From: Amphibalanus amphitrite
Lineage: Eukaryota > Arthropoda > Thecostraca > Balanomorpha > Balanidae
Length of the DNA stretch: 64,000 bases
Assembly: GCF_019059575.1 (NCBI RefSeq)
Contig: NW_024881562.1
Location: 744,001-808,000, forward strand
Direction of reading: 5' to 3'
The translations under genes and the position numbers were made by a program. Below, in pieces: positions 787-55,380 of the stretch; position 1 is the stretch's first letter, and each line of letters begins with the position of its first letter. The notes below the pieces were generated by a model. That model did no database searches and had not been told where the DNA came from. It was given only the letters and a program-made list of their open reading frames with translations.

Positions 787-1366
787 CTCTCGCCCGACGA
801 GGGGGGGGTTGATGCAACCCCCCCCCTAAGGTTTTTCGCAAACAACGTAAAAACGGCGGCGCGTAGCGCCGCCAAATTTGGCATACCATCTGGGGCAGCA
901 TTTTCGCACCTTTCCTGAAAAGTTGAAGTCCCATTCTTTTCAGGTCAGGTCACCAGGTCACAAAAACCGGTACAAGGTCAGGGGGAAATTGGACTAGCTT
1001 AGCGGCAACTGAATTCCAGAGTTCACTTAAATTGGTAACAAAGTATATCATTCGATGCGCACGGACGTCTTGAGTTCACTGGTGCTTTTATTTTTGCTCT
1101 ATCTTTACTAGGTAAAAAGTTATAAGCGAAAAAAACTTTTAACATGTTTTAGCAAAGTTTTTGCACTCATACCCCCAAAACTCCCCTAAATATTGACTTA
1201 GAGTCACCAAACTTTCACAGGGGCGAGATCTCCTATGGACCCACCTACCCTGTAAATTTGGCGTTTCTCAGTGCCATAGGAGCCAATCGCGAGGGGGGGT
1301 CGTATCAACCCCCCCTCGCCGTCCGTGTTATGGAAAAGGCCCTCGCCTGGCGAGGGTTGAACGATG
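787..1366. mobile_element. TTAA-type G-tract-hairpin element (copy 1)
   Basis: The left end is TTAA followed by CTCTCGCCCGACG and a G8/C9 hairpin at about 800-826. The right end is a similar hairpin at about 1291-1318 followed by GGCGAGGG and TTGA, a decayed TTAA. The two hairpin loops are inverted counterparts (TTGATGCAA against TTGATACGA when reversed). The interior contains AGGTCA half sites and the family motif ATTCGATGCG. There is no coding capacity. The ends and the TTAA flank resemble non-autonomous piggyBac-like elements, but no transposase is present to prove the class. Confidence 0.6.
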
Positions 1367-1833
1367 AGCCCGTTCTCCCCTTTGCAATAACCAATGGTCC
1401 CGATGCTTAGGATCCTAGGAAGACTAAAATTAAATTATGAATTAAATTCATAGAAAAGCATCTAACATGCATGACCCTGCCGTGTCCGGGCAGCATTAGG
1501 CTTACCTATGATTCCACGATATCGGCTTTATAATGTCTCTGTCAATTATTTTTTCCTGAAAATAATCTGTTAGTAACCTTTTATGACCTTACATGATCAC
1601 AGGATACAAAGATAAGGCATCGAACAATTTGCCCGCGCCCCGCTCCGTAGCTGATATCTCGGTTCATACCGTAACGGCGTAACATATTTCCTAGACGTAA
1701 AAAGTCAAAAAGAAGCCCATTCACAAGAGACATACGACTTTAATTTCTTTCATTGACTTAAAATGGGGTGGGCAACATGTTGACAAGACCTTAGGAACTA
1801 GGTCACAGTTACCAATAAAAACGGGGGAAAAGC

Positions 1834-2640
1834 GTTAGCCCGCGCCCAGCTGGAGGGGGGGGGGGCGGAATCTGCCCCCTCCCGTTTTTGCCAATAACTT
1901 CTAAACGCGTTACGCCAACGACGTCAAACTTTCAGTACCTTATCATACATCAATTTAAGACGTTTCCTGAAAATTTGAGCAAATCCCTCGGATTTTTTTT
2001 AGAAAATGACATTTTAGTGACGTCATGTCCGCCATTTTCGCCTCAAAAACGGCAAAATTTCAAACGCCGTTCACAACTTCATTTTTAAAGGAATCAAGAC
2101 GTAACAAAAAAGGTTATACGTGATTCTACTTTGTCTATCAAATGGCTATCTCGGTTTTTTGAAAATTTTGGATTTTGGCCCAATATTTTTTCTTAAAAAA
2201 ACTGACTTTTAGAAAATTAATTATAAAATCCAAAATTTTGAGTGTATCGAAAAAAAACAATATATGCCAGAGAAGTGGGCAATGTGCACCTAAATACCAA
2301 TTTTTAGAAGAATCGGTTCAAAAATGTGGGAGCTATTCAAAATTTTATGACGTCACGACACACATTTTTTTTTGAAAAATGAACTTTTCTAAGTTCTAGA
2401 CCTCGTACGGAAACAAAAATAGCACCATTCGATTCGCCGTGAAAAACTGCATCAGATAAACACCTTTTTAGACCTTAACAACCAACTTCCAAATTTGACC
2501 TCACTTGACATGACCTTGACCTGACCTCAACCTGAAGTTCATCCAGATGTGGTCCATATCTCTTATTGAGTGTGCCTATTGAATTCTACGAATAAAATAG
2601 CCCATAAAACATGTGCACATGCCCAGCCGATTCGCTTTGT
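1834..2640. mobile_element. TTAA-hairpin family remnant (copy 2, boundaries uncertain)
   Basis: It begins with TTAGCCCGCGCCC and a G11/C6 hairpin at about 1853-1886, like the fragment that ends near 52966. The interior shares words with 51230-51720, such as CATAAAACATGTG, and has dense TGACCT half sites at 2490-2535. The right boundary was not found. No gene is present; the short ORFs here are AT-rich chance frames. Confidence 0.4.
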
Positions 2641-3018
2641 TAAGCTAAGCACATTTGCCGTATACCTATGCATCGCTCTAGTACCTATGTCTCTAGTAAA
2701 ATGTATTATCAAATGACAAATGCTTATAACCTATCATAACCTAAGATGACATTTCAAGTGACCACTGGTCGTTCTTGTTGTATAAAACCGACCCATTGTA
2801 TGTGCGACCCATGAGCAATGCAGTCGAGATAGCGTAGTGGGTTCCGTTCGAGATACTGACAAGATGAGAAAGTGATGCCCGTCATGATAGCCTATATTCA
2901 GCATCTTATTCAATCTGGTTTTGCCGATCTCATAGCTTGATATGTTTTCGAACGGTACTTCTTTCAATCTGATTTTCCATGTGTCTCCATAAAAGAATTC
3001 ACTATATAAAACGTTCAC

Positions 3019-3024
3019 TTTATT
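3019..3024 (-). promoter_or_regulatory. Polyadenylation signal of the minus-strand YVT-repeat gene
   Basis: On the minus strand AATAAA lies about 350 bp after the stop codon at 3374-3376, a normal 3' UTR distance for the gene upstream. No other AATAAA was noticed closer to the stop. Confidence 0.45.
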
Positions 3025-3039
3025 AGTGACATGGGTGTC

Positions 3040-3416
3040 TTGGAGTACATCATCATAACACATTTCTATCAGCATGATAAATCACAGCGAGTCAGCATGT
3101 ATAACAAGTCTCACATGGCAGGGCGCGAATTCCCACACAACAATAACACCGTCAGAGGAACAATGTTGACCAGAGCGGGCGGACCAGCCGACCCGTGACC
3201 CCTCCCCACCTACACAATCACATGGTACACTTACAGTACTATAAACACACCCGACCACACACATCACAGTACATCACACACATCACAGATAAAGACCAGC
3301 TGATTGGTGGACCAGCGACTGAGGCGGTGCGGCTTCGCGGTCAGAGCCGCGCCCGGCCGGTCGGCGGCGGCGTCTACTTGCCGTAGCTGGGGTACGTCGG
3401 CTTGGGGCACACGGTG
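3040..3416 (-). repeat. Right arm of the inverted gene duplication
   Basis: This is the reverse complement of about 1-385. It covers the last 13 codons and the 3' flank of the complete minus-strand gene. The arms differ by scattered substitutions, for example GTAGACGCC against GTAGGAGCC just after the stop. Confidence 0.85.
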
Positions 3417-4120
3417 ACGTACTGGTTCTGGTACTGGGTGCTCGTCACCGTCACATACTGGTGCTGCGTCTCCGTGTGGTAGACCTGCTTGTACTCGGGG
3501 TAGGCGTTGGTGATGGTCTGCGTGACGTAGTAGGGCACCTGCTGCGTCTCGGTGATGTACTCGTAGCTGAGCTTGGTCTCGGTGACGTAGCGGTACTCGG
3601 GGTACGCCTGGCTGTGGTAGGCCGTCCGCGTCACGTAGTAGGGCACCCGGGCCGTCTCCGTGTAGTACTGCTGCACGGCCACCACGTCCGTGTAGTAGGC
3701 TGTCTTGGTCTGCATCACAAACACCGTCTCGGTCAGGTACTGGTGTTCGGTGACGTACTTGGTGTCGTAGAGCACCTTGGTGCTGACCTTGACCTCCGGC
3801 GCGCCGTACGCAGTCACGTACTGCGAGTGGTACACGGTGCTCGGCTGGTACTGGGTCTCGGTAACCTGCTGGTAGCGCGTGGTCGGCTCCAGCGCCGTGT
3901 ACGTGTTGTACTGGGTCTCAAAGTCTATCTTGGTCGAGGTAATGGTGACGTAGTGAGTGCGCGGCTCGCAGGCGGGCGTGCCGTAGCCGGCGGCCGGCGC
4001 TGGCGCGTCGTACGACGGAGCGATGACCGGCGGAGGCGCGTGCTGCGGCCGTCCGTCGGGCGAGGGCAGGGCGGCCGTGCAGACGGCGCCGGCCACCAGC
4101 AGCACCAGCAGACGCGCCAT
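3374..4120 (-). CDS. Secreted Tyr/Val/Thr-repeat protein, cuticle or secretory type
   Basis: A single-exon gene of 248 codons. ATG at 4118-4120 is preferred over the in-frame GTG just upstream because it begins a clean signal peptide (MARLLVLLVAGAVCTAALP). A Pro/Ala-rich linker follows to about residue 45. The rest is a degenerate repeat built on YVT, TETQ, YHSQ and PYYVT units, ending in TVCPKPTYPSYGK. Only a few cysteines are seen (one near the repeat start, one near the end). Tyr/Thr/Val-rich repeats after a signal peptide are typical of arthropod extracellular matrix, cuticle or secreted adhesive-like proteins. The exact function is unknown and I do not recognise a named family. A TATA box at 4193-4198 and an AATAAA at 3019-3024 frame the transcript. 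The antisense frame is also open for 297 codons, which is a codon-bias shadow. Confidence 0.8.
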   Translation of the reverse strand: MARLLVLLVAGAVCTAALPSPDGRPQHAPPPVIAPSYDAPAPAAGYGTPACEPRTHYVTITSTKIDFETQYNTYTALEPTTRYQQVTETQYQPSTVYHSQYVTAYGAPEVKVSTKVLYDTKYVTEHQYLTETVFVMQTKTAYYTDVVAVQQYYTETARVPYYVTRTAYHSQAYPEYRYVTETKLSYEYITETQQVPYYVTQTITNAYPEYKQVYHTETQHQYVTVTSTQYQNQYVTVCPKPTYPSYGK

Positions 4121-4192
4121 CACGTTTGTGAGTCTATGTGCTGCTGCGGGCCGGTCGGCGGGGATTGTGACGCCGACCGGCCGACCGCTGCC

Positions 4193-4198
4193 TTTATA
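4193..4198 (-). promoter_or_regulatory. TATA box of the YVT-repeat gene
   Basis: The minus strand reads GGTATAAAGG about 75 bp before the ATG. This would place the transcription start near 4163-4168 and give a 5' UTR of roughly 45 bp, which fits a short single-exon arthropod secreted-protein gene. Confidence 0.55.
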
Positions 4199-4884
4199 CC
4201 ACCACGGAGACGGGACGGTGACGACACCGGTCGACCCAAATCGACTCCGGTGGGGACGGCCCGCCCCCGGTCACACGGCGCCCGCCGGCCCTCACAGCCG
4301 GGCGCACACAGGGAAGGAGGAACCCGCAGCTTACCCAATGTTTACGGCCCATGAACGGCTGCCCGGGCGACCACTGACACTGTTCCACCGCGCGGAGCAC
4401 GACCATCGCAGCCGTGACTCGAGCGCTCGTCAGATGGGGCAATATGCATTGCCCCTTTATACAACAATCGACCGCCTATCAAAATGTTGATTCAATTATT
4501 TCAAAGTCAACAGATCGCAGGCAGGAATGGTAGGCCCAGAATGTTTTGAATAAGACCGTGTGATTATTATTTCGCGCTGTCTGTCGAACGGTGTTCGTCA
4601 TTCCATTCTTTTTGCCACCATAAAGGGATGCAGTTAGCTAAAGCGAACATTTCCATGTTAACCTGCGAATGCAATCCATAAAATCTGCGAAACAGCTGTC
4701 TAACTGCACTGATAGGCGTTGTGCAGATAGCCGTAGCCGTAATTCGCAGATGAGCCAGATATGAAATGTCACTGGTCTGTCGACATTCGAACGCACCGGC
4801 CGGGACGGTCACGTTGAATAGCAGCATGAGACGTCAGATTTGGAGACCGGGCGGCGGTCCAGGTAACTGAATGTTAACACACCT

Positions 4885-7513
4885 GGGGCATTCCACGATA
4901 GATCGTACCACTTTTTTCCAATTTGACACCCTCATCCCTCGGATTTTAACGATAATTGGTGTAAGGGGTAATCAGGGGCTCTGAATCCTCCTGTGACAAT
5001 TTCTGGCTTATCTGATGAGTGGTTTTTGAGTTATAATGTATAACATGTTTTGGATCTTGCGTTGCAGCGCCAAGTTTGGCGGGCTGTAACTCTAAGACGG
5101 ATAATCCAAATGCCAAATGCTATACGGCATTGAACTATTGAAACAAAAAGTAATATGCATTTTTAAAATTTTGAAATATAAACTATTTTTGATATCTAAC
5201 ACATCGAGTTTCATTTCATTTGAATTTTCATGCCTTTGGGACCAATTTGTTTTTTAATTTCTATTTACTTAAAACATTTTTGGATCATTATTAAGTAGTA
5301 TGCAAAAAATTAGGAAGGTGTTCTTTCTATAAATGCACTTATTTTGCGTCACCGTAATGGTCTCGAATTGTGATTTCGGGAAGAGAGCCTACAAATGGCG
5401 TGGTAAAGCTGCCTAGTGACATCACTGGTTACTGAAAGTCCAATTGAAGTCATTTTTACCTCGCGTTTGCATTGTTGACCTTGCGTGACGTCATTCGTAT
5501 GCGTCACTAGGGTCAAAGAGTTTTTCGTTAATAACTCTCGATCAAATTGAGCTAGAGAGACGGGAAAGCTACCAATGGACTCGGGAAGACCTTGCGAATC
5601 GAATGATGTGCAATATGATCTCATTCGCCCAGCTTCGTGGCCTGACCCGACTGTGAACCATCTATGTGGCGGCGCTGTTTGTCCAGCGCCGCGCTGGTTG
5701 GCTTTGCCGGGGACTCTGGGCGGTCACGTGATGCCCGAGGGCTGGCTGCCGGCTGGGCCGCCCGGTCGGGGCGCGGAGCCAAATACACGGCAGTGTGCTG
5801 ACCTGAGGTCAGCGACTTAAGCTGACCTCACCAGAACAAACAGTATACCATTCGACGCGCCGGAGCTAGGCAAACACAACGATGCTAAAATCGCGGCTCT
5901 GCGACCATTTGTTGCGAAGTTATCTACCGAAAACCGGACCCGTAATTTGGGTCACTTGAAATGACATCAGGGGTCACCAATGAACCCGAGACCTTAAAAA
6001 GTGGTATCAATCGATGCATCTTGTAACGGCGCACATGCTCGTTTTTTCCGCAAGGTTCTAGCTCCATTGGAGGCGAAACGGCGAGCTGGGGTCGTACTGA
6101 CCCCCCGGAAACCCATTTTGTATGCATTAACCCTCGCCCGTAAACGGCGATCTGCCACCTTCGCCCATGCAGGGGGGGGGGGGTTGGTGCGACCCCCCCC
6201 CTTGGCGTTTGAAAACGGAGCGTCGTAGAGCTTAGCGGAAAAGACCAACGGATTGCTCTCGCCGAGATCTCGCGATTGGTGGTATATTTTTTGGTCCTAG
6301 GTCAACATTTGACCTACTTTTGACCGGTCAAAGGTCAAATTTTCGGAAAAATAGACTTTTTTCAACTTTCCGCGGCGATTGCGGCAAAAAGGTGGGAGAT
6401 ATCGACTTGAAACCTTCACTATCGTGTTCCTTGATCAATTCTCTATCGTTTGGTATGTATTTCGTTTCCCTAGCTCTAAAAATGGCGCGTTGGGAGCGCC
6501 GGAAGTCGGCAAGGTCACAGTCGGCGGCAGAAGTTCGAAAAATCAAAATTTGAATTTTTGAAATCTGATTGTATTTTTGGATTTGGAAGGTCCATTTGCT
6601 CCCTATAGAAGCTAATATTGCTGCATATTCCCATTGAGGTGACAAGAATTAGCAAAATAGTGGTTCGGGCGCTTTTCAAAAATAGTACCGGACGCTGTTC
6701 CTCTTGTGACGTCATAGCTCCGTGACCTGACCTGACCCGGTCAAGTTTCTTATACCATATGATAGCCATTACTTGCCCCAACATGCATGGGAAGTTTCAT
6801 CACGATCCATCAACCGATGTCCGTACCACCGGCAGGAAACCTCGGGCGTTGGCACTCAGTTTGTGAAAATCCGGCCGGAGGCTGTTCCCTTTGTGACGTC
6901 ATAACTCCGTGACCTGACATTACCCAGTCAAATTTTTTTTTTTTATCAAAAGATGCGCAAGGTTTGCCCCATAAGGTACCCAAAATTTGGCGTATTTCCG
7001 AAAAACCTCAGGGGGGGGGGTTGCACCAACCCCCCCCCCCCCCTACATGGGCGAGGGTTAAAATGAGGAACTTATAGAAAGAACACCTTTCTAATTTTTT
7101 GCATGTCGATTTTAAATGACCTGAAATTAATTTTGAAGAAATAAAAATGGCAAAAAATTTGGTCCCAAGCGCCGTTATAGACAATTCAAAAAAATCTTAC
7201 GACTTTTTTCAATATGTAAAGCTTTTCTTTCCAATTTTAAAAAAGCTGTATTAATCTTTGATTCATCGTTAGTTCAAAGCTGTTTACCGTTTGTTGCTTG
7301 CTTAGCTCGTTTTTGAGTTATAGCTCATCAAACTCACCCTTACAATCTGAAGTTTAGAAAATATTATGCAATGTAGCTCAAAAAGTTTTCATATGAGAAG
7401 TCTGATATTTTGGCAGGTGTTTTTGGAGCCTATGATTACCCCTAGCACCAATTTTCATTCAAATCTGAGAGATGAGGGTGACGGGCCTGGTACGATCTAT
7501 CGTGGAATGCCCC
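4885..7513. mobile_element. DNA transposon with ~440-bp terminal inverted repeats starting GGGGCATTCCACG
   Basis: The left end GGGGCATTCCACGATAGATC and its right-end inverse match. Similarity continues inward for about 440 bp, ending near the shared word GGTGTTCTTTCTATAA (about 5320-5335 and 7070-7085, inverted). The flanking direct repeat is ACCT on both sides. A second element with the same terminal sequence lies at 35953-37749 with flanks GCAC, so a 4-bp target duplication is likely. The interior carries a nested TTAA element (6131-7057) and AGGTCA-rich sequence. No transposase is recognisable. The superfamily is not assigned. Confidence 0.7.
6131..7057. mobile_element. TTAA-type G-tract-hairpin element (copy 3), nested
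   Basis: It is flanked on both sides by TTAA (6127-6130 and 7058-7061). Terminal inverted repeats start CCCTCGCCC. G-tract/C-tract hairpins lie at about 6171-6202 and 7011-7044, with loops TTGGTGCGA and, inverted, TTGGTGCAA. The interior has repeated AGGTCA/TGACCT words and no ORF of note. It sits inside the long-inverted-repeat element at 4885-7513, so it inserted later. Confidence 0.7.
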
Positions 7514-7725
7514 ACCTTTCAACGCGACCGGCACCCATGTCAGCCATACCTATTCAGCAGATTGCAGGATCATTGCACACAATCCACCTCTTATTGGGTT
7601 TGCAGGTTAACTACCTCTCGAATGATCACGCGGCAGTCTATGTAAACCTTTTCAAACACCGAATTACAAGTAACGTTGACAGTTGACCCAATGAACACAA
7701 AAATACATAGCACCCGTGACCCTTC

Positions 7726-8060
7726 ACACAGAAAAATATTAACACCGTTAGCGGTGTAATTGCACAGTACATATCTGAGCACTTGAGGAAAGTTAATTTA
7801 GTCCCTTCCCCGCTTACATTACTCGCGCTTCTAAATGAACACCAGGAAGAAGGTAATAGAACACTGTTAGGAGGGTTGGGTGGTTTGCTACATGTAGTAA
7901 AACACCCAACCCTCCTAACAGTGTTCTATTACCTTCTTCCTGGTGTTCATTTAGAAGCGCGAGTAATTTAAGCGGGGAAGGGACTAAATTAACTTTCCTC
8001 AAGTGCTCAGATATGTACTGTGCAATTACACCGCTAACGGTGTCAATATTTTTCTGTGTG
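7726..8060. repeat. 335-bp near-perfect palindrome (foldback element)
   Basis: The left arm starts ACACAGAAAAATATT and the right arm ends in its inverse, AATATTTTTCTGTGTG. Arms of about 160 bp are almost identical and meet at CTACATGTAG near 7892. The short ORFs reading through it on both strands encode the same peptide because of the symmetry and are not genes. It resembles a foldback MITE. No clear target duplication was identified. Confidence 0.8.
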
Positions 8061-8790
8061 TTGTTTATGCCCATGAGGTCATGTCAGGTCACGAGGGTAT
8101 CTAGCAGGTTTTAGCAAATAGTTTTGGATAGAGGCATGTTAGAGCGATGAAAACGCATTAGATTTGTTAAGCTCCACGATACGGATCGGCTGATACGCAG
8201 CATGACCCTTTCCGGTCAGGTCAAGACCTTGGCCTGAGGTCATTTTTTCAATTTGACCTTTCAAGGTCAAATTATAGTTCATTCGATGCGTCTTGACGAG
8301 AGGAACACTATGCAGGTAAAGTTTAGCTCGTGCAAGGCTTGAGTCAAAAGTTAGTGCAAAAAAAAAAACTGTCCGCAAAAATCGTCCATTTTGGCAGTTT
8401 TTGCCACCTGCAGGCTAGAACGTTGACGTCGGATCAAATATGCAGGGAGAAATATTCAAAGAGAGCGTTCAGCGAGCTATCAAATGCGCTTTTCCTCGGC
8501 GCTGTAGCTCTCTTGGTTCCCGAGTTATGTGTCGGCTTCTAAAAATTGTTGACATTTGGCCTGAAAATCTGCAACATTTGGCCTTCAATGACCTCTGGTG
8601 ATCTGACCTTGACCTGAGCAAAAAAGTGACTGAAGTAGTTCCGTCATTATGTTTGTCACTCTTTCGCACACTGCCTTCCGCGTATCGCTGCGTGGCCCAG
8701 GAGCCGAGTTAGAAGGGGAAGGGTGTTCAAACACCCCCCCCCCCCAGCAGGGCGTGGAAATCCAGGACCCCAGCGGTATGCGGGTTAAGA
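8061..8790. mobile_element. TTAA-hairpin family remnant (copy 4, one end recognised)
   Basis: It contains AGGTCA arrays (8078-8095, 8215-8272, 8585-8620) and the family motif TTCATTCGATGCGTCTTGACG. Near the right end is a hairpin GGGTGTTCAAACACCC followed by C-tracts (about 8715-8745), ending in TATGCGGGTTAA. The left end is not resolved. No gene is seen. Confidence 0.4.
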
Positions 8791-10538
8791 CGGAGGACAG
8801 TGTAGTGTAGGATTCAATGTCATCGTATGGAAGCTCTAACGCCAGTCATTTTGAATTTTTAATCCAATGAAGCATTGCTATGTTGAAGTTCTATACGAAC
8901 TGTCACAATTGCAAATATGTAGTCGAACACATTGTTTATTTTATTTGCACTAAAACTTAAATATTCAGCATAGCTTGAAGTAACTATAATTTTAAGATTA
9001 AATTGCATGTCATTTATATTAATTTGCTTGTCATTTATTTTAAATAGCATGTCAATTGTTTTAAGCTAAATGTCACGTGTTTTAACCCGCCTGTCAATTG
9101 TTTTAATTCAGAAATCAACTGTTTTAAATTGGACTTCATTTGTCTTAAAATGCATCGAAAATGGTGTAAATGTACCTTAAAACATTTCGTTCGCCACAGT
9201 AACCAGTAATTACTTCTCAATGGGGAATGCTCATTGCTCATAGCGGGAATAATCGATAAATATCCGTCTGTTTCCAGTGCTTAAATATGCACAAATCGCA
9301 TGAAGGGTAACTGGTGTCACGATTCCAGACTCCGCCTTGGTAAATAAACAAATCAATTCCTTTTTCTCCAAATTAAGAGACACCTTCCACTCTCCTTTCT
9401 AGCGAATGCATTTTTCCCCAGTGTCCTCTCAGACAGATGACATTTCACCTAAAATACTCCCCTCTCCCACCCATCGACAATATTTTCCTTGATATAGCGT
9501 CATCTAGACTGTTCTAACGGCATTTTAACCTTAGACAGTATCCTCTCCCTCCTACTGCAACTGACGGCATTTTCCTTCCGATAGGGCCTTCTTACATTCT
9601 TACAGACGGCCTTATCCCTCAGACACGGTCCTTTTCTCTCCCGCAAACGTTTTTTTCTAAGCGCCTTTTCCCTACTACGGAAGGTATCATTCCTAACATT
9701 ACCATCTCTTTCCTATTCTTTCTTATTGTCTCTTTCTCTCTCCTAAAAGCACCATTTTCCGCCGGACAGCTCTCTGCTTCCTACCGGCGGCATTTCCCTC
9801 ACAATGTTCTCCCTCCCTCCAACCGACGTTAGCTTCCAAAGACAGCTTACTGGCCATAGTACCTGTCCTTTAAACCAATCTATCGGCATTGTCGCAAAGT
9901 TGTTTCGTACCAACCCACCACTGCGTACGCCCACAGCTGCGAGGGTCCACCAAAGCGATCGACACACTATCTCGCTGGCTCAGAGCTGAGCATTCCAAAG
10001 GCCCAGTCCCAAAAAAGAGGCAGCTTCATAGATTCTCATTGCATTACACAGCTGTGGTCATAAACGGTTGGTGTTTTCCACCAACTAAGCACGCGTGCGC
10101 ACCTCACCATAACAACCAACACGACACGAAATCGAGCACACCACCGGAATTTACCCCTTACGTTGTTCTCCCTATCCAATTAACAAGAATAAAATATATA
10201 TTGAAATAATTTACAAGCATCCTAGGTAGATCTTGGGCCCTGAAGCCACACCACGAGGGCACCATTGGCGGAAAATTGCTACTAACGCTCATATAAACCC
10301 GCAAGAAGGTAGCCCGGGCGGGTATTGCGCTCCGATCGCAAACCGCGGCGCAGATAGGATGGAGTTTCGCAGCTAACGTCATGAGGTGGCCAGATCCACC
10401 CAGCCCGTCCACCGGTTCACCATTGGACGTTTTTATCACTTATGGGCTGTTCACTGTTCAGCTTCCACACCCGTCGTATCTCCAGCATTAATGTGCTACG
10501 CGGATCGACTGCTGTAGGAATACCGTTCAACAGTGCTG
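8791..10538. other. Gene-free stretch: degenerate repeats and pyrimidine-rich sequence
   Basis: From 9010 to about 9190 a loose TGTCAATTGTTTTAA-like unit recurs with a period of roughly 30 bp. From 9360 to 9830 the plus strand is rich in TTTCCC/CTCTCC blocks with recurring ACGGCATTTTCC-like words. I see no conserved coding sequence. Part of it may be 3' flank of the PREB gene, but no clear polyadenylation signal was found. Confidence 0.4.
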
Positions 10539-10539
10539 C

Positions 10540-10795
10540 GACTGTCATGTGCCATTCGTATGACAAAAGTACGACAGCGACTGAACACTGTCGTACAAGT
10601 GTCGTATGAATGAACTACGAGAGTCACAAAACTGCCGCACGAGTGCTGTATAACAGTTGCGTGACAAAAGTACGGCAGTTGTACGATTGAGGTACGACTT
10701 TCACATAACTGTCGTACGAGTGTCGTTTGTCAGTCGTATAACAAATGTGCGACAGTCGTACCTCATTCGCAAAACTGCCGTACGAGTGTTACACA
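10540..10795. repeat. Degenerate ~70-bp minisatellite with ACTGTCGTAC core
   Basis: Words such as ACTGTCGTACGAGTGTCG recur near 10587, 10627, 10703 and 10771. Spacing is about 40-76 bp and the inverse word GTACGACAGT is interspersed. It lies just downstream of the PREB stop codon and could be within its 3' UTR. Confidence 0.5.
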
Positions 10796-10938
10796 CAAGC
10801 AATACAACAGCAATACGACTCTGCAGCTGCGCGGTACGCGGCTATGATTCAACACGTCACCGTTATGCCGGTCGTCCGCGCCGCCCGTACGCCGCCTCAG
10901 TCATGCTGCCACCGGGTCACCTAAGTCATGTTGCAGTC

Positions 10939-13900
10939 TCAGAGTCCCAGCATGCTGCAGCCGATGAAGGTGGCTACCATGACCACAATGACGATCAGAC
11001 TGGCGGCCAGCACAGAGATGGTCCCTGAAACGGACACAAGCGTGGGGGAGGTCAGTCATGAGGTAGGTAACGTGCCGATTGAGAGGGGAGGATAGCTGCA
11101 CAGGTACGAGCAACAGGGCACATTTCAAGCAAGGCGATAGCTGAAGAGTCAAGGTAGCAGTGCAAGGTAGCTGCAAGATAGCAAGGTAGCTGAGGGGTGC
11201 AAAAGGCTCAGACAACAGTGAAGGGAGCTACAAATTTAAGACACCGCAAAAATGTGAAGCCAAAACGAGAACGATGAATAAAAACACGACAAACCAACAC
11301 AAACGTTCCTTCCAATATTCTATGGTACTTCTGGTATCTTGCCTACCAATTCTCACACCAAAAAGCTCGCCTCCTCTCCATAGCGCATCAAATGGTGGTA
11401 ACGGATCACATTCCTTTGCTACGTGGTGGTTCCTATCCCATCCATCTGCGTCAGGTGCCATTTTCTCACCTCTCTGTGCCACGTGGTGAATCTTGACCTG
11501 GTTGTCGACACTGATGCTGACCACACTGGCGTCGCTGTTTCCTGTGACAGCACGCGCCGCCTCACCCGACGGCAGGAACTCCAGACCGGTGACAAACGTG
11601 TGGTGCGCACTGTCCACCGTCTTGAGCGGACGCAGGCTATAGCTGATGAAGATGGTGACAGAGCCAGACTCCATGGAGCCCACGGCCAGGAATCGACCGT
11701 CGTCACTGACCGCCAGAGCGGATAAGCTGCCTGTAGAAAAGGAGGGGCAGCTGTTAGCGGGAGGAAAGCCACCTGCCAGCAGGGGATAGCAGGGCCGACC
11801 GGACAGGCTGCCTGAGGGCGGGGAGAGGGGTCAAGCTGTCTGGGAGGTTAGGTACTAGTCAGCGAGGAAGGGGAGGGGCGACTGGGCACCTGCCTGGCCG
11901 AGGGAAAGTTATCTGAGCGTGGGGAAGGGTAAGGCCAGCTGGACGGTAAACGGGGCGACCTCTGCCGGATAGAGCAACAACTGAACAGAGATATGCCAGG
12001 GTCATTTACACCCACCACTTTGACCGTTCTCCCTGACGCTACGTGATGTTCCATTTGACTTCTGGACTATTACCTGTGACTGTTGCCGTCTTCTCCGGCA
12101 CATAGGTGGTGGTGTTCCATTTGACGATGTAGCCCGGTTTTCGGGACGACGAGATCGGGTTGTGCAGAGTAAACAGACAGAAGTTGTTCTTGTCGCCTTC
12201 GACTATCCCGAACCTGCCGGTCGAGCCATTCGTCAGTTGTTCAGTGTCTTCGTGGCACTGACACGAATTTTAAATTGATGGCTTGAAGGTCATATTATTA
12301 TCCCATTAACCATGCCGTTAAGAGCGCAAATAGACTCCGCAGCTGTTTGTGAATCCTCTAAATCTCTAGTTCATCCCCATTATCGGGACAAGTACGAGTA
12401 CGAGCGAGTCACGCGATACAAGTACCAGGTCGAGGACACCACTTATTCGAGCGCGATTCGTCTCAGAGTTACGGTGATTATGCCATCATTCAATGGTCCG
12501 TCATTTCGTTAAAGCGGTGTCCTTCATAGTATAAGATACAAAAAGACGAGAGAGAGAGAGCTAAAAGCACCCTTACTTTACTGCAAACCCGACACCGTCG
12601 TACTGACCTGCACTTTTTGAACATGTATTTGCAGCCATCCTGGGGCGGGTCAAAGTCCAGCTGGGCGGCCTTCTTCCCGTCTTTGGTGTTCCAGACGTTG
12701 CACTTGTTGTCCTTCCCGATACTAACGATCTGTAGAAGCAATAGACTAAGCAGTTAATAGCGCATGTGTTGTGGAGCTCACACTTTCAAACGCTAAAACA
12801 TTATAAAAGACGACACGAGTCGTGCTCGGACCATTTGGACGAAATTTCGAGTCTATGACAGAATGGTCGGTTCTCAGTGAAATGGGTTTGCGATTAGCTG
12901 ATATATGTACAATATGCTGAGTGAGCCACAAACGCAAAGCACGGCGGACCGGTCAGCACGGAACGAGCAAAACGAACTAAGCCTTTCGAGGAAAAAAACG
13001 AGCACAAGACTTTTTTTGTAAGTTATCCGCCGATCACGAAATCAAAGATATGACATTTAATACAGACGAACTAATGACAAAACACATATGCATTCGCAAA
13101 ATAGCATTAACGAACTATAAAAACCGTTTCCTCATTGCCGCTCAAAATCAGAGGGCAACAACTCCGCCCAATAATACATTGCAAAACTCTTCAGTCATTA
13201 ACTACATTCTACCAGCCCTGCAAGTGACTCACCCTTGTTCCCGATGGGCTGATGTCTACATCGTCGATTTCCTTGGCGTGTGCCTTGAGGTCCCTGAGTT
13301 TGGTGAGTCCGGGGAACTTCCAGATGCGCAGGTGTCCGTCGCAGCCGCCCGTCACCAGGAACGTCCGGTCCAGACTGACGCGGACCACCTTCTGGAATGA
13401 GTCGTCCCCCTTCGAACTGGGGCGCACGGTCGGGCGGAGGTCAGACAGTCGGCAGGTCAGGGTGTGTTGGGACACATCAAATTAGGGATGTGAAACGGCA
13501 CGGCTGGAAATGGATTGGCATGAACAGGAAGAGCACTATCATAGCAGCAACTGAATAAAGCTGTCGAAAGACATAATGAATGCATTCGTAAATAATTGAC
13601 ATATTCTGATTTCGAAAAACAAACAAATCAAAGGAAAGAACGAAACAAGCGAACGAACATGTGTGTATGCATGAGTCCCAACCCAGCAGTCATTATCAAT
13701 GTTTGTGAAAACTATGACGTAAATATGACAATTATTTACTGCTGACGGTCACTGATACTGAATGGACCGAAGAACCCCTGGTCGTCTCGATCACGACCAC
13801 ACTGACAGCCATGAGCCACCACATGGCCAACCAAGCCTTACTTGAAGTCCGTGCGCACTGACTCCTGCTTGGTGATGTCGAAGCCGATCCGCATGTTCCC

Positions 13901-16987: not shown

Positions 16988-47964
<30,977 letters not shown>

Positions 47965-48542
47965 GGAACCCCGGCCGCGGCCACGCGCGCCTGCGCAGCA
48001 TGAGAGTGTGTTCGGCCGCGACCCGAGTGAGTGAGGTGAGAGTGACCGAGCGAGTGATGAGTGCAGAGTGAGGTCTGGAGTGTCAATACTCCAGCCAAGT
48101 GAACGGACGGGGTGAAGTGTCGCGATCAAAAGATGAGATGGTTCGATGCGCTGTGCGTTAGACGAAGATGTTTGCGCGCTGAGTGATGGAGTGCGAGGGC
48201 GGTGCTGGGCGGTATGCGATATGCGAGCGTCTGTCTCCAGCGGCGGCGCGATTCTCGCGTTGTATATGTCGGAAGGTCAGCGATAGTGAGTGCTTCTGCT
48301 TTTCTGTGTGCGTCGATGGCCCGTGTCGCGAGTGGTCTCCGGAGTCACGGCGTGTCGCTGTGCCGCAGTGACGACCTATGGATGGCTGGTGGGGGAGGGT
48401 CAGGTTCAGAGCTGAGCTCTCAGCGTACGTGCTCTGCGCGGGCGCAACGCAAGTCGTGGGCTTTGTCGATGTGCTGGTCAGACGACTGCTGGCTTTGGCT
48501 CGACTTAGAGCCGACTTATGGCGAACTCGCGAGGCTGATTAT
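47965..48542 (+). other. Probable 3' UTR of DNAJC7
   Basis: A GC-rich stretch after the stop with no conserved gene. No convincing AATAAA was seen before the MITE at 48543, so the transcript end is not located. Confidence 0.4.
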
Positions 48543-48905
48543 GGGCCTGTTCCAGCACCTCCAGTAGAAAGGCTTGACTGGAGGCTCTTTTAATATGTTT
48601 TACTGGAGGCGTAGGAACGCAATTTTATAAAAATAGGTTTAAAAAATTATGTGATTTTCCTTACATTTCAATAGTAAAATTAATCTTTCTTTAATCCTTT
48701 CTTTACGTTCATAATCGTCACATGTGCGCCATGATTATAGACCAGAGCCTCCAGTCAAATGTGGACCTCGCAACTGACTGGAGGCTACTGGAGGTTTCTG
48801 GAGCTTTGGCGAGAGCTTTCTGAAGCTTACAGGAGGCGCTGGTTCTGGACTGACTGGAGAATTCTGGAGCTTTCTGGTGTTTTCTAGAGGCGTTGGAACA
48901 GGCCC
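48543..48905. mobile_element. MITE with GGGCCTGTTCCA termini
   Basis: The left end GGGCCTGTTCCAGCACCTCCAG and the inverse of the right end GGGCCTGTTCCAACGCCTC match, with TAT flanking both sides. The interior is rich in CTGGAGG words in inverted arrangement. The termini and 3-bp flank are in the style of PIF/Harbinger or ISL2EU non-autonomous elements. This class call is tentative. Confidence 0.7.
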
Positions 48906-49429
48906 TATCATGGTTGGCGCCCTGGCCGCGATGGGTTGCTGAGGGACGGAAGTGGCGGCGACCTGGTCGGGGCAACCCACCCAGCAGAGTGGGCGGTCTC
49001 ACGGGAAATCGCCCGCCGCTAGTTTTATACCGTTACCAAATAACTTTTCGATGAAAATCTACAGTAACTGAGTACCATGGATTCTGTTGTAAGAAACCTG
49101 TGCTTGCTGGTCCATAATCCGTATGCTTGTTGGTATTTCATATTTCGTTCGTAGTCTTCAATTGCTGAATTAATTTAACCGAGATACATCGCCTATTAGA
49201 ACCCTGGAGGTGTGTCACGGACGCTGGCCGGTCGTCGAACAGGGTCGGGTTCGACCCGACTGTGGGCGTCTCGGTTCATAATGTACTGACCTGTTCAGAA
49301 GCCGAGTGCTCAGTGCTAGCGGTAACACCCTGTGCGGCACGAACGGTGAGCCGGTGGCCGATTTCAGCTGGAGACGGTGATCGCTGCGCGGGATGAGCGT
49401 TGTGTTCATTCTCTCGCGTCTGGTGACAA

Positions 49430-49815
49430 CTTTCCGTACCGTGAGCGGTCAATACATAACCCTGAGAAATACTGTGAGCCGTCAAGGCATAACCCTGAGA
49501 GGAATCGTGAGCAATGAGCAGTCGATACATAACTCTGAGAAGCATGAGCACTGAGCATTCAATGCATAACAAGGAATACAGCTGTGAGCGGAAAATACAT
49601 AACCACGAGAGGATCCGTTAGCGGTCAATGCACAACTCCGAGAAATACCTGAACTGTCAATACATAACCCTGAGAGATGCCTTTATGGTCATTTAATGAC
49701 CAATTATTGGTCAATGCTCAGTACAAAACCCTGAGCAGTATCGTGAGCGGTCAATTAACGCTGAGAATCTCTCCCACGCCATAGCGCTCAGAGCATAACG
49801 CTGAGAATTGTCCGT
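49430..49815. repeat. Degenerate ~50-bp minisatellite (GTGAGCGGTCAATACATAAC)
   Basis: About eight units share GAGCGGTCAATACATAACCC followed by TGAGA with variable spacers. The order is head to tail. No coding meaning is apparent. Confidence 0.65.
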
Positions 49816-51199
49816 TCCGTAAGTATGCGTGACGCTGCACAAAGCCAACCCCGTGTTGGAAGAAGTTAGTCTTCAGCCCACAGCGTCCTGGGTGGTTGCC
49901 GGCATTCGTCCCAAACACGTGATATGCTGTGTAGGCGGCCAGGCGGTTTCATCATCTGATAACCTTAGCGAGCGAGTGATAAGGTCGATAGGGAAAGATA
50001 AGTTGTCGGGTCGATGGCGGATTGCCAAAATGACCTTGTAGTCGGCGCGCCCTTAAGCCCCCCGATGGCGGATTGCACAATGCACATTCTGCCTGCATAG
50101 GACTCCAGTGCTGCCGACGGTCGCCCTAGGGCCGCCCGTGACGGAAGAGGGCCCAGGTCGCCGCTCCCCCTCGTTTGGTGCTATAAATCGTTATATCGTT
50201 GCTATAAGGACAGCTTGCCATAACAAATATTTACAATGGCATTACCACGGAATGACGATGTTTGCGGCCTAGCTAATGGCAAGTGACGAGGAATTGAGTA
50301 TGTATGTAGGTTTGCTCGAAACAAAGATGCTGTATCGGCCAATGATAAAAGTTTTGATATGCTACGACGCGGTAGAGTTTGACCCGAGCCGTAACGAGCG
50401 ACGTTTTATTACTCCCTTCCCTCCCCTCCCCTCGGGCTTTACATAAACGCCGGCGCTACGCGTTGCCGTTTTAAGCGCACCTTTTTGATTTTTACGCACA
50501 TGTGGAGGTCAGCTATAGGTCATCTAAGGTCAGGTCACCAAGTCACTTCAAGGGATCTCATCTCTGGAGCTAAGTAAATACTGGTCCCCCGTTTTGAATG
50601 GGGAACTTTTAGCGGTTGATCTAATTGACAAGGGTGACAGGAAATGTGTATCTCGTTTTACTCGTCGTAATATGAGACTGAATGCTGCTACAAACCGCAG
50701 AATGACAGATAACACAGGTCTCGCCTCGTAAGCACTGTGCCCAACTGAAATAAACGTACATCGGTCGCTACAAGGTATTCCCATCTCTGGTAACCCGTCT
50801 CCCACCCACACCCAGCGGGATGGACGGGCCCCGCCCCTCTCCACCGCCGACCGACCGGCCGACCGGGGGTCATGACCTCGGCCGGCGGCTGTGACCCCGG
50901 GCGAGCTCCGGCCAGCCTCTCCAGCTACGGAAGGTGGCGCCGCCTAGCCGCCGTCCGTTGAACCCAACCTGTGTTCATGACTCCGACAAAATTGCTCGGT
51001 CGGCAAATTCAAGGTCGCTAGCTGGGGGCGGCGGCCGCACGGCCGTGGCCGGCCCGTCGACTCGCGCGTATGACTCAAACTGTGGTTGGTGTGTTGTGCA
51101 ATGCGGGCGAGCAGCGGGATAGGCGGTACGGAGCGCTGTCAGGAAAAGAGCGGCTCGCCGCGGTAGGGTAGCTCGCTGCAGGGCCAAGGGTTGGTCGCA
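49816..51199. other. Gene-free stretch
   Basis: No conserved coding sequence. There is a short AGGTCA cluster at 50507-50540 and GC-rich sequence at 50810-51180. Nothing further is supported. Confidence 0.4.
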
Positions 51200-51229
51200 A
51201 AACATGTGTTTTTATTTTTTTCATATAAT

Positions 51230-52966
51230 TTTTCGACCTTTCGAAAAAAAAAAAACAGAATATAGGTTTGTGATAGAACACATGCCGATAATTTACTCTA
51301 GCAAGTTTTAGCCCGATGTCTTCAAAAATAGCTAAGTTATACGCATTTTACTCAAAATTTCACCATTATCGATTTTTCACATTCATTTTTCAGTAGATTT
51401 TAAACATCCTACAGCAAAATAAATAACACTATTGTGTTCCTGAGCTCAAACTGCATCTGATAGACTTCTATTTTGTTGAAAAATTCAGCTTCAAAATTTG
51501 ACCTTTTTGACCTGAGAGTGACCTGACGGTCTGACCTCAGCTATATTCAGCTAAAAATAATCTCAAATGACAAAAGCGACACTATTGTTTAAATCTATTG
51601 CTGAAATGGACCATAAAACATGTGTCACGTGACCGATGCATGATATAAAATTTCAGTGACCTAGGATATTCGACGGGTAACCTGGAGGGGGCCTTTATCT
51701 GAAAAATTCGCAGCACAAGTTCGGTAGTCGGTACCCTCCGGGTATCTAAGACATATCAAGGAGTGCGTACCCAAGCCAAAAATGAGCCTGGTCGGACTTG
51801 TTAGCAGGCGGCCAGACCCTCAATTGTGAACAAACCAAAATGCTAATTGGTAATTTTTACTTTGACCTGATCTGTGTGACGTCATTGGTGGGTTAACTCT
51901 GGGTCAATGAAACTGGGTTTCACTTAACCCTCGCATGTGTGCGGCGTTTGCCAGCTTCTAATGTGTAGGGGGGGGGGGTCGGTTGGACCCCCCCCCCCCT
52001 TGCCGTTTGGCCCCTGATCGAGCTAGAGCTTCGCGGAAAAAAACGAGCGTGTTGCCCGTGACGAGAGGAAGCCGATGATACCCAATTTTAAGGTCCTAGG
52101 TCGTTGGTTGACCTTCCAGGTCAGGTCAATGACCCAAAGTCGGGAAAATCGGGACCTGTTAGAAAGTCGTAAAGTGTGGCTGCTAAGGGGTTTTTCGGGG
52201 TGCTGATCACGAATATCGTGTTAGTTTTGATCACAGATGATGTCTTGAAGCATTTAGACCAGGTCGGGTCAGGTCAGGTCAGGTCAACCAGTAGGCGTCG
52301 TGACGGGTATTCGTAGTACGTGTCAACCGCCTCTGACAGCTTCGTAACATGTTACGAAGTCACCAAAACTACTTCGTAAATGTTCAAATGGTTGCTAAAT
52401 TCGAATTCAGCTCCAAAAACTAGCCTAGAAACATGTAAAACTCGAAAAAGTGAACCGAGGTCACCCGAGGTCACCAAAGGTCAATGACCTGACCTGACCT
52501 TCAGGTGACCTTGACACACACGGGAGTAACATCAAATCACATGTTTGAACGTTTGAAACCACGAAAAGCTTGCAAACACGCGGCTAGTGCTAGCCGACAT
52601 ACGCGAAATCGCGATTCCGGCCAAACATGGTCTCTGAAAAGAGGTCACAGGTCAAAGGTCATTTGGGTCAGGGTCATGAAATTTTCAGGGTAGGTGTAAA
52701 ATTGATCAATGGGAGGGTACTGAAAGTTTCGTCGCGATCGGCCGCTTTTTACGCGAGTTATTCGCGAAAAACCATGGGGGGGGGTCCATCCGACCCCCCC
52801 CCCCCCTACACATGCGAGGGTTAACAGTTTTTCCAAGGCTATCAGACGCTGTCTGGATTTTAACGATTGGCCCAGTAGTTTCAGAGATAGGGGGGCCTCT
52901 GTAGAGCCCCCCCCCCCTCCCCCAGTCACTCGCGTTATGGAAATAACTCCAGGTCATGCGCGGGCT
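51230..52966. mobile_element. Older TTAA-hairpin family element interrupted by a younger one
   Basis: The 51230-51720 part resembles 2090-2600 (CATAAAACATGTG, TTTGACCTTTTTGACC). The right end near 52889-52966 has a hairpin GGCCTCTGTAGAGCC with G/C tracts and ends GCGCGGGCTAA, matching the inverse of the start of the remnant at 1834. A complete younger copy (51928-52820) sits inside. The left boundary is not resolved. Confidence 0.4.
51928..52820. mobile_element. TTAA-type G-tract-hairpin element (copy 5)
   Basis: TTAA on both flanks (51924-51927, 52821-52824). Terminal inverted repeats start CCCTCGCATGTGT. G/C-tract hairpins lie at about 51967-51999 and 52776-52806, with matching inner sequences TCGGTTGGA and, inverted, TCGGATGGA. 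Its interior has the densest AGGTCA arrays of the window (52090-52130, 52255-52290, 52455-52510, 52640-52680). No ORF of note. Confidence 0.75.
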
Positions 52967-53404
52967 AATTCTCGCTGAAGTAATGCTCACTCGTTTTCCT
53001 CGAGAGATATGACATTCGCGCGTAAACAAGTGCAGCACTGGGAGATACGGTCGCACTGACAGCAAAGGTTACCACGAGGAGAGTGCCTAGTGGTCGGCTC
53101 GGGGGAAACTAAACATATGAGCAGTGGTTTCCGCATGCGTATAGGGTGAGCGATAAACGATAAACGATAATTTTCGCTGTTAAGTAAATCGGTTATCGTT
53201 ATCGTTTATCGCTAAATTTTGAAAATTATCGCTCATCCACATATCGCAAGTTACAAAAATTATGAACGATAAGCGATAAATATAAAACGGGATGATTGAA
53301 AAATGGAAGACGATCGACAGTGTATGCCGCGCGACAGTAGGTATGTGTGCGCAACCTGTTGCCATCTGCTAAGTGTACAGATCTGTCAGACGGCCGACGG
53401 GTGG

Positions 53405-53440
53405 TATAAATTTGCGCGGCGGACCGGGCAGAGGTCAGTC
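53405..53440 (+). promoter_or_regulatory. Core promoter: TATAAAT and TCAGTC initiator
   Basis: TATAAAT starts at 53405 and TCAGTC spans 53435-53440. The initiator A is 32 bp from the first T of the TATA box, the canonical arthropod spacing. The ATG of a short ORF follows about 56 bp downstream. Confidence 0.55.
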
Positions 53441-53492
53441 ACAGCGGGGCCTACTCCCGCATATCTGGAGGAGTGAACAAAACAAGTATATA

Positions 53493-53636
53493 ATGAACTT
53501 GCTCCAGAAAGTCAAACTCAGCATCAAAAACTACGCCAACTTAGCTAAGGTTTCCGTCTTTGACTACTCCCGAAATAAGAACGTGCTCGTACCGATATTA
53601 GTAGGATTAAGAATTACAAAGCTTAACTTGTCATAA
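53493..53636 (+). CDS. Short ORF of unknown function downstream of a core promoter (47 aa)
   Basis: The frame starts MNLLQKVKLSIKNYANLAKV and ends at TAA 53634-53636. It is basic with an amphipathic start and I recognise no family. It is retained only because a well-spaced TATA/initiator pair precedes it and it sits between two TTATCG arrays. It could be the first exon of a longer transcript or a chance frame inside a mobile element. Confidence 0.25.
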   Translation: MNLLQKVKLSIKNYANLAKVSVFDYSRNKNVLVPILVGLRITKLNLS

Positions 53637-54192
53637 TTACGGCGCGCCTACAACGCATTACGTCTTTTGCCAATTGGCGAATTTTCACAGTGGAGGTACC
53701 GTTTCGTTATCGCTGTTAAAAAACAATTATCGTTATCGTTTTATCGTTTACATATCGTTTCGTTATCGCTGTCAAAACAATTTTCGTTATCGTTCTATCG
53801 TTTTATCGCTATCGTTGTTAATTTTAAAAAAAAATATCGTTTATCGTTTATCGTTATCGCAAACCTTCCTTATCGTTTTATCGTTATCGCAGGTGCGAAA
53901 ATTAGTTGTCGCGGAAAGCACTGCATATGAGGGAGAGGGTTCGGGGAGACGGACACGGTACCTAAGTAGGTAGGTAAGTACAGGTCTCGCGGGTTTTAGC
54001 GGTAGGTTTTGCACCTAGAAAATTTAGTGTACTTCAGGCTATATCTTCGTCGTCTTAAGCTTTTAAGTGTTGAAGATGCGATCGACTTGTTGGGTAACAA
54101 GCCGGCCAGGATCGTGTAAAATGGCTTCATCGTAGATCGATTAGTTTCTGAGATATAACCGGAAATGTAAAAGTGCAAAACCTACCGCTTAA

Positions 54193-55380
54193 CCCGCGCC
54201 CTGGTGTGGGTCTGAGCCACCTTCGCCCTGGTGGGGGGGGGGGGCCAAAATGACCCCCCCCCCCGTCTAACTCGAAAACGAAGAGGGCTAGGAAGACGCG
54301 GAAAAAAGCAAACGAAAGCCCATAACAAGTACGTTCGAAAGTATTTCAGTCATTTTTTCGCTAAGGTCAATATTGAGGTCGCTAGAGGTCATCATAGGTC
54401 AAATTTCAGTGTTTTCGGTGTTGCCGGACATATTCCGCTGTAGCTCGGAAACTAGAAGAGCTAGAGAGCCGCGGAAAAAAGCAATCGATAGCTCTTTTCA
54501 AGCTCTTTCGCCAAGGTTCGTCAGATTTGACCTCAGCTCAACGGTTTGGCCCACAGAGGTCATGCAAGGTCAACTTGGCAAATTTCGTTGAAAATGTTTT
54601 TAACTATAGCATGCATTCACGAGAAAATAGAGAAACGATTCATGCACCATCGTGCTTGGCTCGTCGAGACGCGTCGAATGATATATAGTTTGACCTCGAA
54701 AGGTCATTTTGAAAATTTGACCTCAGGTCAAGGTCATGACCTTACCGAAATAGGTCATGCTGCATATCATTCGATCCGCATTGACGAGACAAACACGATA
54801 AACGTCGAACGGAGTCTCTATCTCTATTCAATAACAAGTAAGTGCAGAAAAACCGCTGGTGACCTCTGGTGACCAGGGAGATGACCTAGCGTGACCTCAG
54901 CGAGGTCACAAGCAAATGGTTTCACATGGGCTGTGATTTGCTGACCCAAGACACTTCAATAACGAAATATAGGAACAATCACGCCCGATTTAGCTGAAAA
55001 ACAACTACTTTTCGATTCTCCCATTGACTTATAATGGGGAGCAGCGATGACCTGACCTGACCTTAGGTCACATTTATAAAAAATCCGAGATAGCCATTTT
55101 GTAGAGCTGGGTGACATCTTCAAGTACTGTAAATTTTACATCGATCGGATAAAAGCTGTGCCTTTGAGAGAGCTTTGAACTTTTTTAGAGGTGGTGTCAG
55201 TTTTGGTGACCTTGTGACCTGACCTGACCTGACCCGAACCCCCCAAAAAAGGACATGATGTAAAAATGTTGAATAAACAGCTATACAAAGTTTCAGGGCG
55301 CTAACTCAAGTGGTTTCTGAGTTATCGCTGAAAAACCACAGGGGGGGGGCCAAAATGGCCCCCCCCCACCAGGGCGAAGG
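54193..55380. mobile_element. TTAA-type G-tract-hairpin element (copy 6)
   Basis: TTAA flanks both ends (54189-54192, 55381-55384). The termini are CCCGCGCCCTGGTG and, inverted, CCTTCGCCCTGGTG. Hairpins lie at about 54232-54264 and 55340-55368, with inner parts CCAAAATGA and CCAAAATGG. AGGTCA/TGACCT words are abundant (54365-54400, 54555-54575, 54690-54760, 54860-54905, 55045-55070, 55200-55235). It carries the family motif ATTCGATCCGCATTGACGAG. No gene. Confidence 0.72.

Follow-up and report, generated by a model that had tools for sequence, protein, structure and literature searches.

G-tract palindromes at the unequal ends of piggyBac MITEs in Amphibalanus amphitrite: predicted family-specific binding sites of the transposase

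The DNA stretch under study, hereafter the window, comprises 64,000 nt of the Amphibalanus amphitrite assembly GCF_019059575.1 (contig NW_024881562.1, positions 744,001 to 808,000) and harbours miniature inverted-repeat transposable elements (MITEs) of the piggyBac type, whose ends each carry a palindrome composed of a G-tract, a short core and a C-tract. The two ends of an element are built unequally, and the cores differ between families while their dyad symmetry is mostly kept. Since the palindromes are placed where the piggyBac cysteine-rich domain (CRD) dimer binds, and since the ends follow the piggyBac LE35/RE63 plan, we consider it quite likely that they serve each family as its own binding site for a homodimeric CRD, diverging along with the transposases, the binding itself being predicted from comparison of sequences.

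Window copies and their piggyBac partners

A preliminary description, made from the letters of the window, had reported four clear copies and three fragments of TTAA-flanked elements with terminal G-tract palindromes, and all of them were found again. The spans 6131-7057, 51928-52820 and 54193-55380 were borne out, whereas the first copy ends at 1356 instead of 1366. TTAA flanks both sides of three of the four copies; in the copy at 787, which is oriented opposite to the other three and has at least 39 further genomic copies at 92-95% identity, one flanking TTAA is mutated. Searching the window for G(6+)-N(3-16)-C(6+) gave nine matches, namely both ends of each of the four copies and the fragment near 52900, against none for the reverse order C-N-G; in the fragments near 1855 and 8734 the G/C arms are shorter or interrupted. 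Listed in plus-strand order for the copies at 787, 6131, 51928 and 54193, the core pairs are TTGATGCAA/TCGTATCAA, TTGGTGCGA/TTGCACCAA, TCGGTTGGA/TCCATCCGA and CCAAAATGA/CCAAAATGG. The core TTGGTGCAA of the preliminary description corresponds to the right end of copy 6131 in inverted reading, the left end of this copy being TTGGTGCGA. Copies and palindromes are as follows, with ends termed compact or long by the distance from the tip to the palindrome:

787-1356, minus strand: MITE copy, 570 bp, compact end left and long end right, flanks TTAA (783-786) and TTGA (1357-1360)
801-826: compact-end palindrome G8-TTGATGCAA-C9, tip distance 14 bp
1293-1315: long-end palindrome G7-TCGTATCAA-C7, tip distance 41 bp
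6131-7057, plus strand: MITE copy, 927 bp, TTAA on both sides, kin of the piggyBac elements in loci L069/L072 with the middle lost
6172-6201: long-end palindrome G12-TTGGTGCGA-C9, tip distance 41 bp
7011-7043: compact-end palindrome G10-TTGCACCAA-C14, tip distance 14 bp
51928-52820, plus strand: MITE copy, 893 bp, TTAA on both sides
51968-51999: long-end palindrome G11-TCGGTTGGA-C12, tip distance 40 bp
52776-52806: compact-end palindrome G9-TCCATCCGA-C13, tip distance 14 bp
54193-55380, plus strand: MITE copy, 1188 bp, TTAA on both sides, internal-deletion derivative of the L080 element (G000:C33), junction near 54873-54874
54233-54264: long-end palindrome G12-CCAAAATGA-C11, tip distance 40 bp
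55341-55367: compact-end palindrome G9-CCAAAATGG-C9, tip distance 13 bp

The piggyBac kinship of these MITEs is most evident for copy 54193, which is a deletion derivative of a piggyBac element. Its positions 70-682 correspond to positions 1-613 of transposase locus L080 at 99.5% identity, and its positions 681-737 to L080 4145-4201 at 98.2%; the match resumes past the gene, and the copy therefore lacks about 3.5 kb including the transposase gene. Because the L080 stretch begins inside the C-tract, the tip was checked at contig C431, where C431:244709-245014 equals window 54193-54500 at 99%, tip and palindrome included. This long end lies downstream of a transposase copy (C431:242303-243388) that scores equal to L080. 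At least 39 other copies of the compact side of copy 54193 are 99-100% identical to the window, and among the matches listed four score as high as the window over 451 bp; the family has therefore spread recently. In a second lineage, L069 and L072, a palindromic long end lies downstream of the gene and a palindromic compact end upstream. Copy 6131-7057 matches the long-end side of these loci at 86-87% over 269-277 bp and the compact-end side of the lineage at 75-84% over 232-322 bp. The assignment to a TTAA-inserting piggyBac-type family thus stood, and the partner of autonomous type with the same ends, for which a search had been recommended, was located in L080/C431 for the long end and in L069/L072 for both ends.

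The L080 protein comprises 645 aa without internal stop, matches PF13843 at 9.4e-60 and, as a predicted model, resembles piggyBac transposase 6x67 by fold at 1.2e-30. L072 and L069 share 38% and 34% identity with it; both genes carry a frame defect, an in-frame stop close to the start in L072 and a frame change ahead of the CRD in L069. The residues D295, D379 and D478 of L080, which correspond to the DDD catalytic residues of piggyBac, are invariant in 16 proteins and align to the piggyBac chain. Alignment with piggyBac transposase (6x67/6x68) runs through the C-terminal CRD (E = 1.2e-56 for L080 and 8.9e-79 for the L072 frame), where both proteins carry the ligand pairs CxxC, CxxC, CxxH and CxxC in the piggyBac order, while the piggyBat match of both stops before the CRD. 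Among the C-termini read, this ligand order is found in L066, L072, L074 and L080, in contrast to a different cysteine pattern in most other lineages that extend into the CRD region, and both lineages with observed palindromic ends (L080; L069/L072) carry it. According to the available part of PMC8086355, the CRD of piggyBac is a PHD-like finger of the cross-brace kind that binds a repeated end motif, while other relatives possess other CRD folds. Comparison of the L066 and L074 transposases with the MITE families gave one 63-bp match; further matches may belong to a neighbouring MITE.

The PF13843 profile gave 116 scored matches in the genome, many with long open frames, and 42 of these loci were read. 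At least one readable end of the TTAA-CCCATTA kind occurs in 22 of the first 30 loci, none of which has a G-palindrome assignable to the transposase element itself; only nested or neighbouring elements carry one there. Among 19 distinct other piggyBac ends, L039 5' and L065 3' contain a palindrome at bp 15-34 (0/200 and 4/200 shuffles scoring as high), the near-identical ends of L043, L045 and L051 contain one at bp 53-70 (2-3/200), and for the remaining 14 at least 21 of 200 shuffles score as high. The palindromes of L039 5' (GTGTCCTCATATGAGGACAC) and L065 3' (CGTATCATTTATGATACG) are devoid of G-tracts.

Two kinds of element end

At the compact end, a tip of 13-15 bp separates TTAA from the palindrome; at the long end this distance is 40-42 bp, made up of a similar tip, a further stretch of about 20 bp and a second copy of the last 7 bp. 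The resulting offset of the palindrome between the two ends, a spacer of 26-27 bp, is absent from the preliminary description, as is the opposite orientation of copy 787. Leaving out ends whose spacer contains a G5 run, 54 TTAA-anchored ends from the loci and the window comprise 28 with 13-15 bp, one with 17 bp and 25 with 40-42 bp. The longer spacer was likewise present in all 51 long ends typed from CCCTCGC genome matches. Measured from the tip, the centre of the palindrome lies at 24-32.5 bp in 29 compact ends and at 50.5-62.5 bp in the 51 long ends.

The inner 7-mer of the long end agrees with the tip region of the same end in a mean of 5.9 of 7 letters, compared with 3.4 for other rows (0/5,000 shuffles; 18 long-end rows, including a few variants of one family). 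In addition, the 7-mers of compact and long ends have 92 of 105 letters in common in 15 families (shuffle mean 39.7; exceeding 20,000 shuffles), both ends having been seen in one element for 13 of the 15, while CCCGTT and CCCTGCT were matched by motif. Each element as a rule combines one end of each kind: in the first 3.0 Mb of contig C1, with 325 ends, 99 of the 104 facing pairs 150-2500 bp apart are long plus compact, three are long/long and two compact/compact, against 18 divergent pairs of mixed types and 28 same-strand pairs. With CCCV tips alone, 57 of 58 facing pairs on this contig are long plus compact. The element sizes given by the facing pairs are mostly 885-945, 997-1038 and 1153-1215 bp.

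The genome-wide search for the end pattern that had been advised was run over 807.55 Mb, requiring TTAA, a tip and then runs of six or more Gs and six or more Cs, with the reversed pattern as control. Counted as matches, certain sites matching twice, the long-end pattern occurs 39,089 times (15,094 with the tip CCCTCGC and 23,995 with CCCV) and the compact-end pattern 35,982 times (14,615 CCCTCGC, 17,395 CCCV and 3,972 CCCT followed by A, G or T). The reversed controls gave 0 (CCCTCGC) and 5 (CCCV) for the long patterns and 0, 0 and 0 for the compact ones. These counts suggest some tens of thousands of elements. The available part of PMC2872659 states a CC[C/T]T tip for the piggyBac superfamily; the tips CCCT and CCTT occur here, beside the abundant TTAACCCV kind (CCC then G, A or C) counted above.

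This plan closely parallels that of piggyBac from Trichoplusia ni. In the part of PMC7351741 available, the piggyBac ends are unequal (LE35/RE63), with RE bp 34-63 nearly identical to LE bp 7-35, and the CRD site is a palindromic 19-bp internal repeat present at both ends, where a CRD dimer occupies bp 17-33 of one end and bends the DNA; the piggyBac CRD residues Y558, R567 and K569 are described there as crucial. Shared features are the TTAA target, unequal ends with an offset of about 27-28 bp, a palindromic repeat near each end, a duplicated segment in the longer end, the transposase fold and the CRD ligand order; the A. amphitrite elements differ in their G/C-tract arms round a mostly 9-10-nt core, in the family-specificity of this core and in their tens of thousands of end matches. 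In piggyBat from Myotis lucifugus, as far as the available part of PMC11707139 goes, imperfect palindromes likewise lie 3 bp inside repeated motifs and are bound by the CRD dimer of piggyBat, whereas there are three palindromes at the left end and none at the right, and the CRD is topologically different. The coral CMITEs (PMC2872659, in part) are also TTAA-flanked MITE families with diverging terminal inverted repeats and kinship to a piggyBac element present in their own genome, but they are about 100 bp long, and the main text seen contains no words beginning with palindrom- or asymmetr- and no hairpin. Among the titles and abstract openings listed by paper searches, none refers to piggyBac ends with G-tracts.

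Core symmetry and its interpretation

The claim that family-specific cores keep their pairing was confirmed at the family level. With each family represented by a single core at each end (21 compact and 20 long, from the window, the loci and genome matches) and three inner pairs scored, 51 of 63 positions are paired in compact cores (shuffle mean 22.2) and 49 of 60 in long cores (23.9), the register of two cores, GTAAATTTTAC and CTCTACAGAG, having been picked by eye for these counts; with no register picked by eye the values are 48/63 (22.1) and 47/60 (24.0). In all four comparisons 0 of 20,000 shuffles score as high. The cores of the two ends are also alike within a family, as had been described, with 95 of 117 letters in agreement in 13 families (shuffle mean 53.5; exceeding 20,000 shuffles); to explain this likeness, a copying process between the ends need not be invoked. 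The core is inverted between the ends in two families (CCATTTTGG/CCAAAATGA and TCGAACGGA/TCCGTTGGA). The same core orientation at both ends, reported for the fourth copy, was recovered, and one more family (7-mer CGTATA) behaves likewise.

Pairing is far less complete in individual copies. In the 9-nt register, three inner pairs are formed in 16 of 70 long ends, two in 28 and one or none in 26, this set holding 70 of 71 listed rows (one being incomplete) and including one compact end matched by the long pattern; for compact ends, taken at 44 places (a 45th is a long end), the figures are 22, 17 and 5. Taking the best of the 8-, 9- and 10-nt registers, 16 long ends have three pairs, 46 two and 8 one, and 23, 17 and 3 compact ends have three, two and one, with a single end having none. 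The abundant long core CGGGTACGA keeps one of its three inner pairs, two being broken. Among the 20 long-end family cores, 5 of 11 unpaired positions are G-T; they lie in cores sharing CGA as the inner half and probably do not represent independent cases. An inner half CGA adjoining the C-tract was observed to be common to long cores with differing outer halves (CGGGTACGA, TTGGTACGA, TTGTTACGA, TTGGTGCGA).

Symmetry of sequence alone does not separate a hairpin from a duplex dyad, and the case is made by the mismatches, the position, the plan of the ends and the transposase. The straightforward reading of the palindrome would be a two-fold symmetric duplex binding site. In such a site, one CRD would read both half-sites and both ends, and a shift in CRD specificity would favour parallel changes in each half-site of each end. 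With a single domain reading all of these, changes that look compensatory would arise without any hairpin function, and the dyad symmetry of a homodimer could account for the inner pairing as well as for the mismatches tolerated and for the inverted cores. A symmetric dimer would be expected to tolerate inversion of the core between ends; the inversion itself could result from fold-back template switching across the G/C arms.

Several points weigh against a CRD-binding role. Within the stretch fetched, G-palindromes at the element's own ends appear only in L069 and L072 among the 42 loci read, several of which have no readable end at all. A search for the compact end next to the gene in the L080 lineage found none, with C33, C257 and C431 absent from the matches listed. 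The CRD part of the AlphaFold model is of low confidence (pLDDT about 36-48), and the domain is judged by sequence alone. Moreover, the families are related, so that the shuffles overstate independence and 0/20,000 is not to be taken as a probability. The G-tract, 6-16 nt long among 51 long ends and variable within families, shifts the distance from tip to core by roughly one turn of the helix, which fits poorly with a rigid complex, and assembly error or later slippage may contribute to this variation. G-tract arms are, besides, not mentioned for piggyBac in the part of PMC7351741 available.

We find it very improbable that the palindrome is functionless, with descent and gene conversion keeping the ends alike, slippage growing the G-tracts and symmetry arising as a by-product of fold-back repair. 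The variable G-tract lengths, the 7-mer common to both ends of a family and the two core inversions, which resemble fold-back template switching, would suit such an origin. However, 99 of 104 facing pairs are asymmetric, so that conversion does not homogenise whole ends; cores as unlike as TTGGTGCAA, CGGGTGCCG and CCATTTTGG keep their dyad pairing; and the site is located at the position of the piggyBac CRD site.

The preliminary description had proposed, as one of two options, that the hairpin itself matters, for strand processing, replication or recognition by a transposase. In this reading a single-stranded hairpin or extruded cruciform would be the functional form, with pairing selected as pairing. 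We consider this very improbable. The family-level pairing far beyond shuffles, the very strong G/C arms, the G-T positions, which a hairpin could tolerate, and the full set of inner pairs in half of the compact ends speak for it. A required hairpin is nevertheless not supported, in view of the incomplete inner pairing of both end types, with all three pairs in only 16/70 long and 22/44 compact ends; copies with a non-complementary inner stem, which had been named as evidence to the contrary, are many among the long ends. Some mismatches, for example the G-G of TCGGATGGA/TCGGTTGGA, are found at the two ends of a family alike, and TTAA duplications together with a partner encoding a cut-and-paste DDE transposase need no such structure. 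The hairpin known for piggyBac lies elsewhere, at the TTAA tip intermediate, according to the available part of PMC7351741.

Single-strand transposons that depend on hairpins, the IS200/IS605 and Helitron kinds, are ruled out by the TTAA duplications and inverted ends, as they have neither target-site duplications nor terminal inverted repeats. That a non-piggyBac superfamily (Kolobok or Sola3) mobilises the elements, with the piggyBac kinship due to chance nesting, is hardly credible: these superfamilies also duplicate TTAA, but a MITE equals a piggyBac gene flank at 99.5% and resumes on the other side of the gene, and palindromic ends lie beside piggyBac genes in two lineages.

Returning to the palindromes as CRD sites, we tentatively suggest, as a possibility somewhat short of an even chance, that some fifteen or more families of piggyBac within this genome, each with its own dyad core and 7-mer on one common end plan, may form transposase/end pairs orthogonal to one another, with coevolution of CRD specificity and site, and that fold-back template switching between the arms may turn the core round while binding is retained. 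The genome resembles a natural collection of transposase recognition sites that are diverging, and bears on the question of how a transposase shifts its end recognition and yet stays mobile. With many sister families and readable transposase genes in one genome, a CRD-to-DNA code and the need for asymmetry could be read from natural variation. Orthogonal families, if true, would offer separate piggyBac tools for genome engineering.

Fragments and other features of the window

The three fragments, with long-type cores given in inward reading, are:

1855-1879, plus strand: compact-type end, TTAG, then CCCGCGCCCAGCTGGA (16 bp), then G11-CGGAATCTG-C5
8715-8784, minus strand: long-type end, core TGTTTGAACA, G arm interrupted, spacer 39 bp, TTAA (8785-8788) at its end
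52890-52964, minus strand: long-type end, core CTCTACAGAGG, flank CTAA

The core TGTTTGAACA is also present in loci L032 and L061.

By eye, GGTCA/GACCTGACC repeats are numerous in the interiors of several elements, for instance at window 52240-52300 and 54350-54760, and dense ATAACGATAA/TTATCGTT repeats occupy 53140-53900 between two elements. A GC-rich segment at 3363-4125 with TACTGG-type periodic codons has, also by eye, the look of a repetitive-protein gene on the minus strand. Besides, window 7725-8060 forms a near-perfect fold-back palindrome of two 168-bp arms that are 98% complementary, with no spacer between them.

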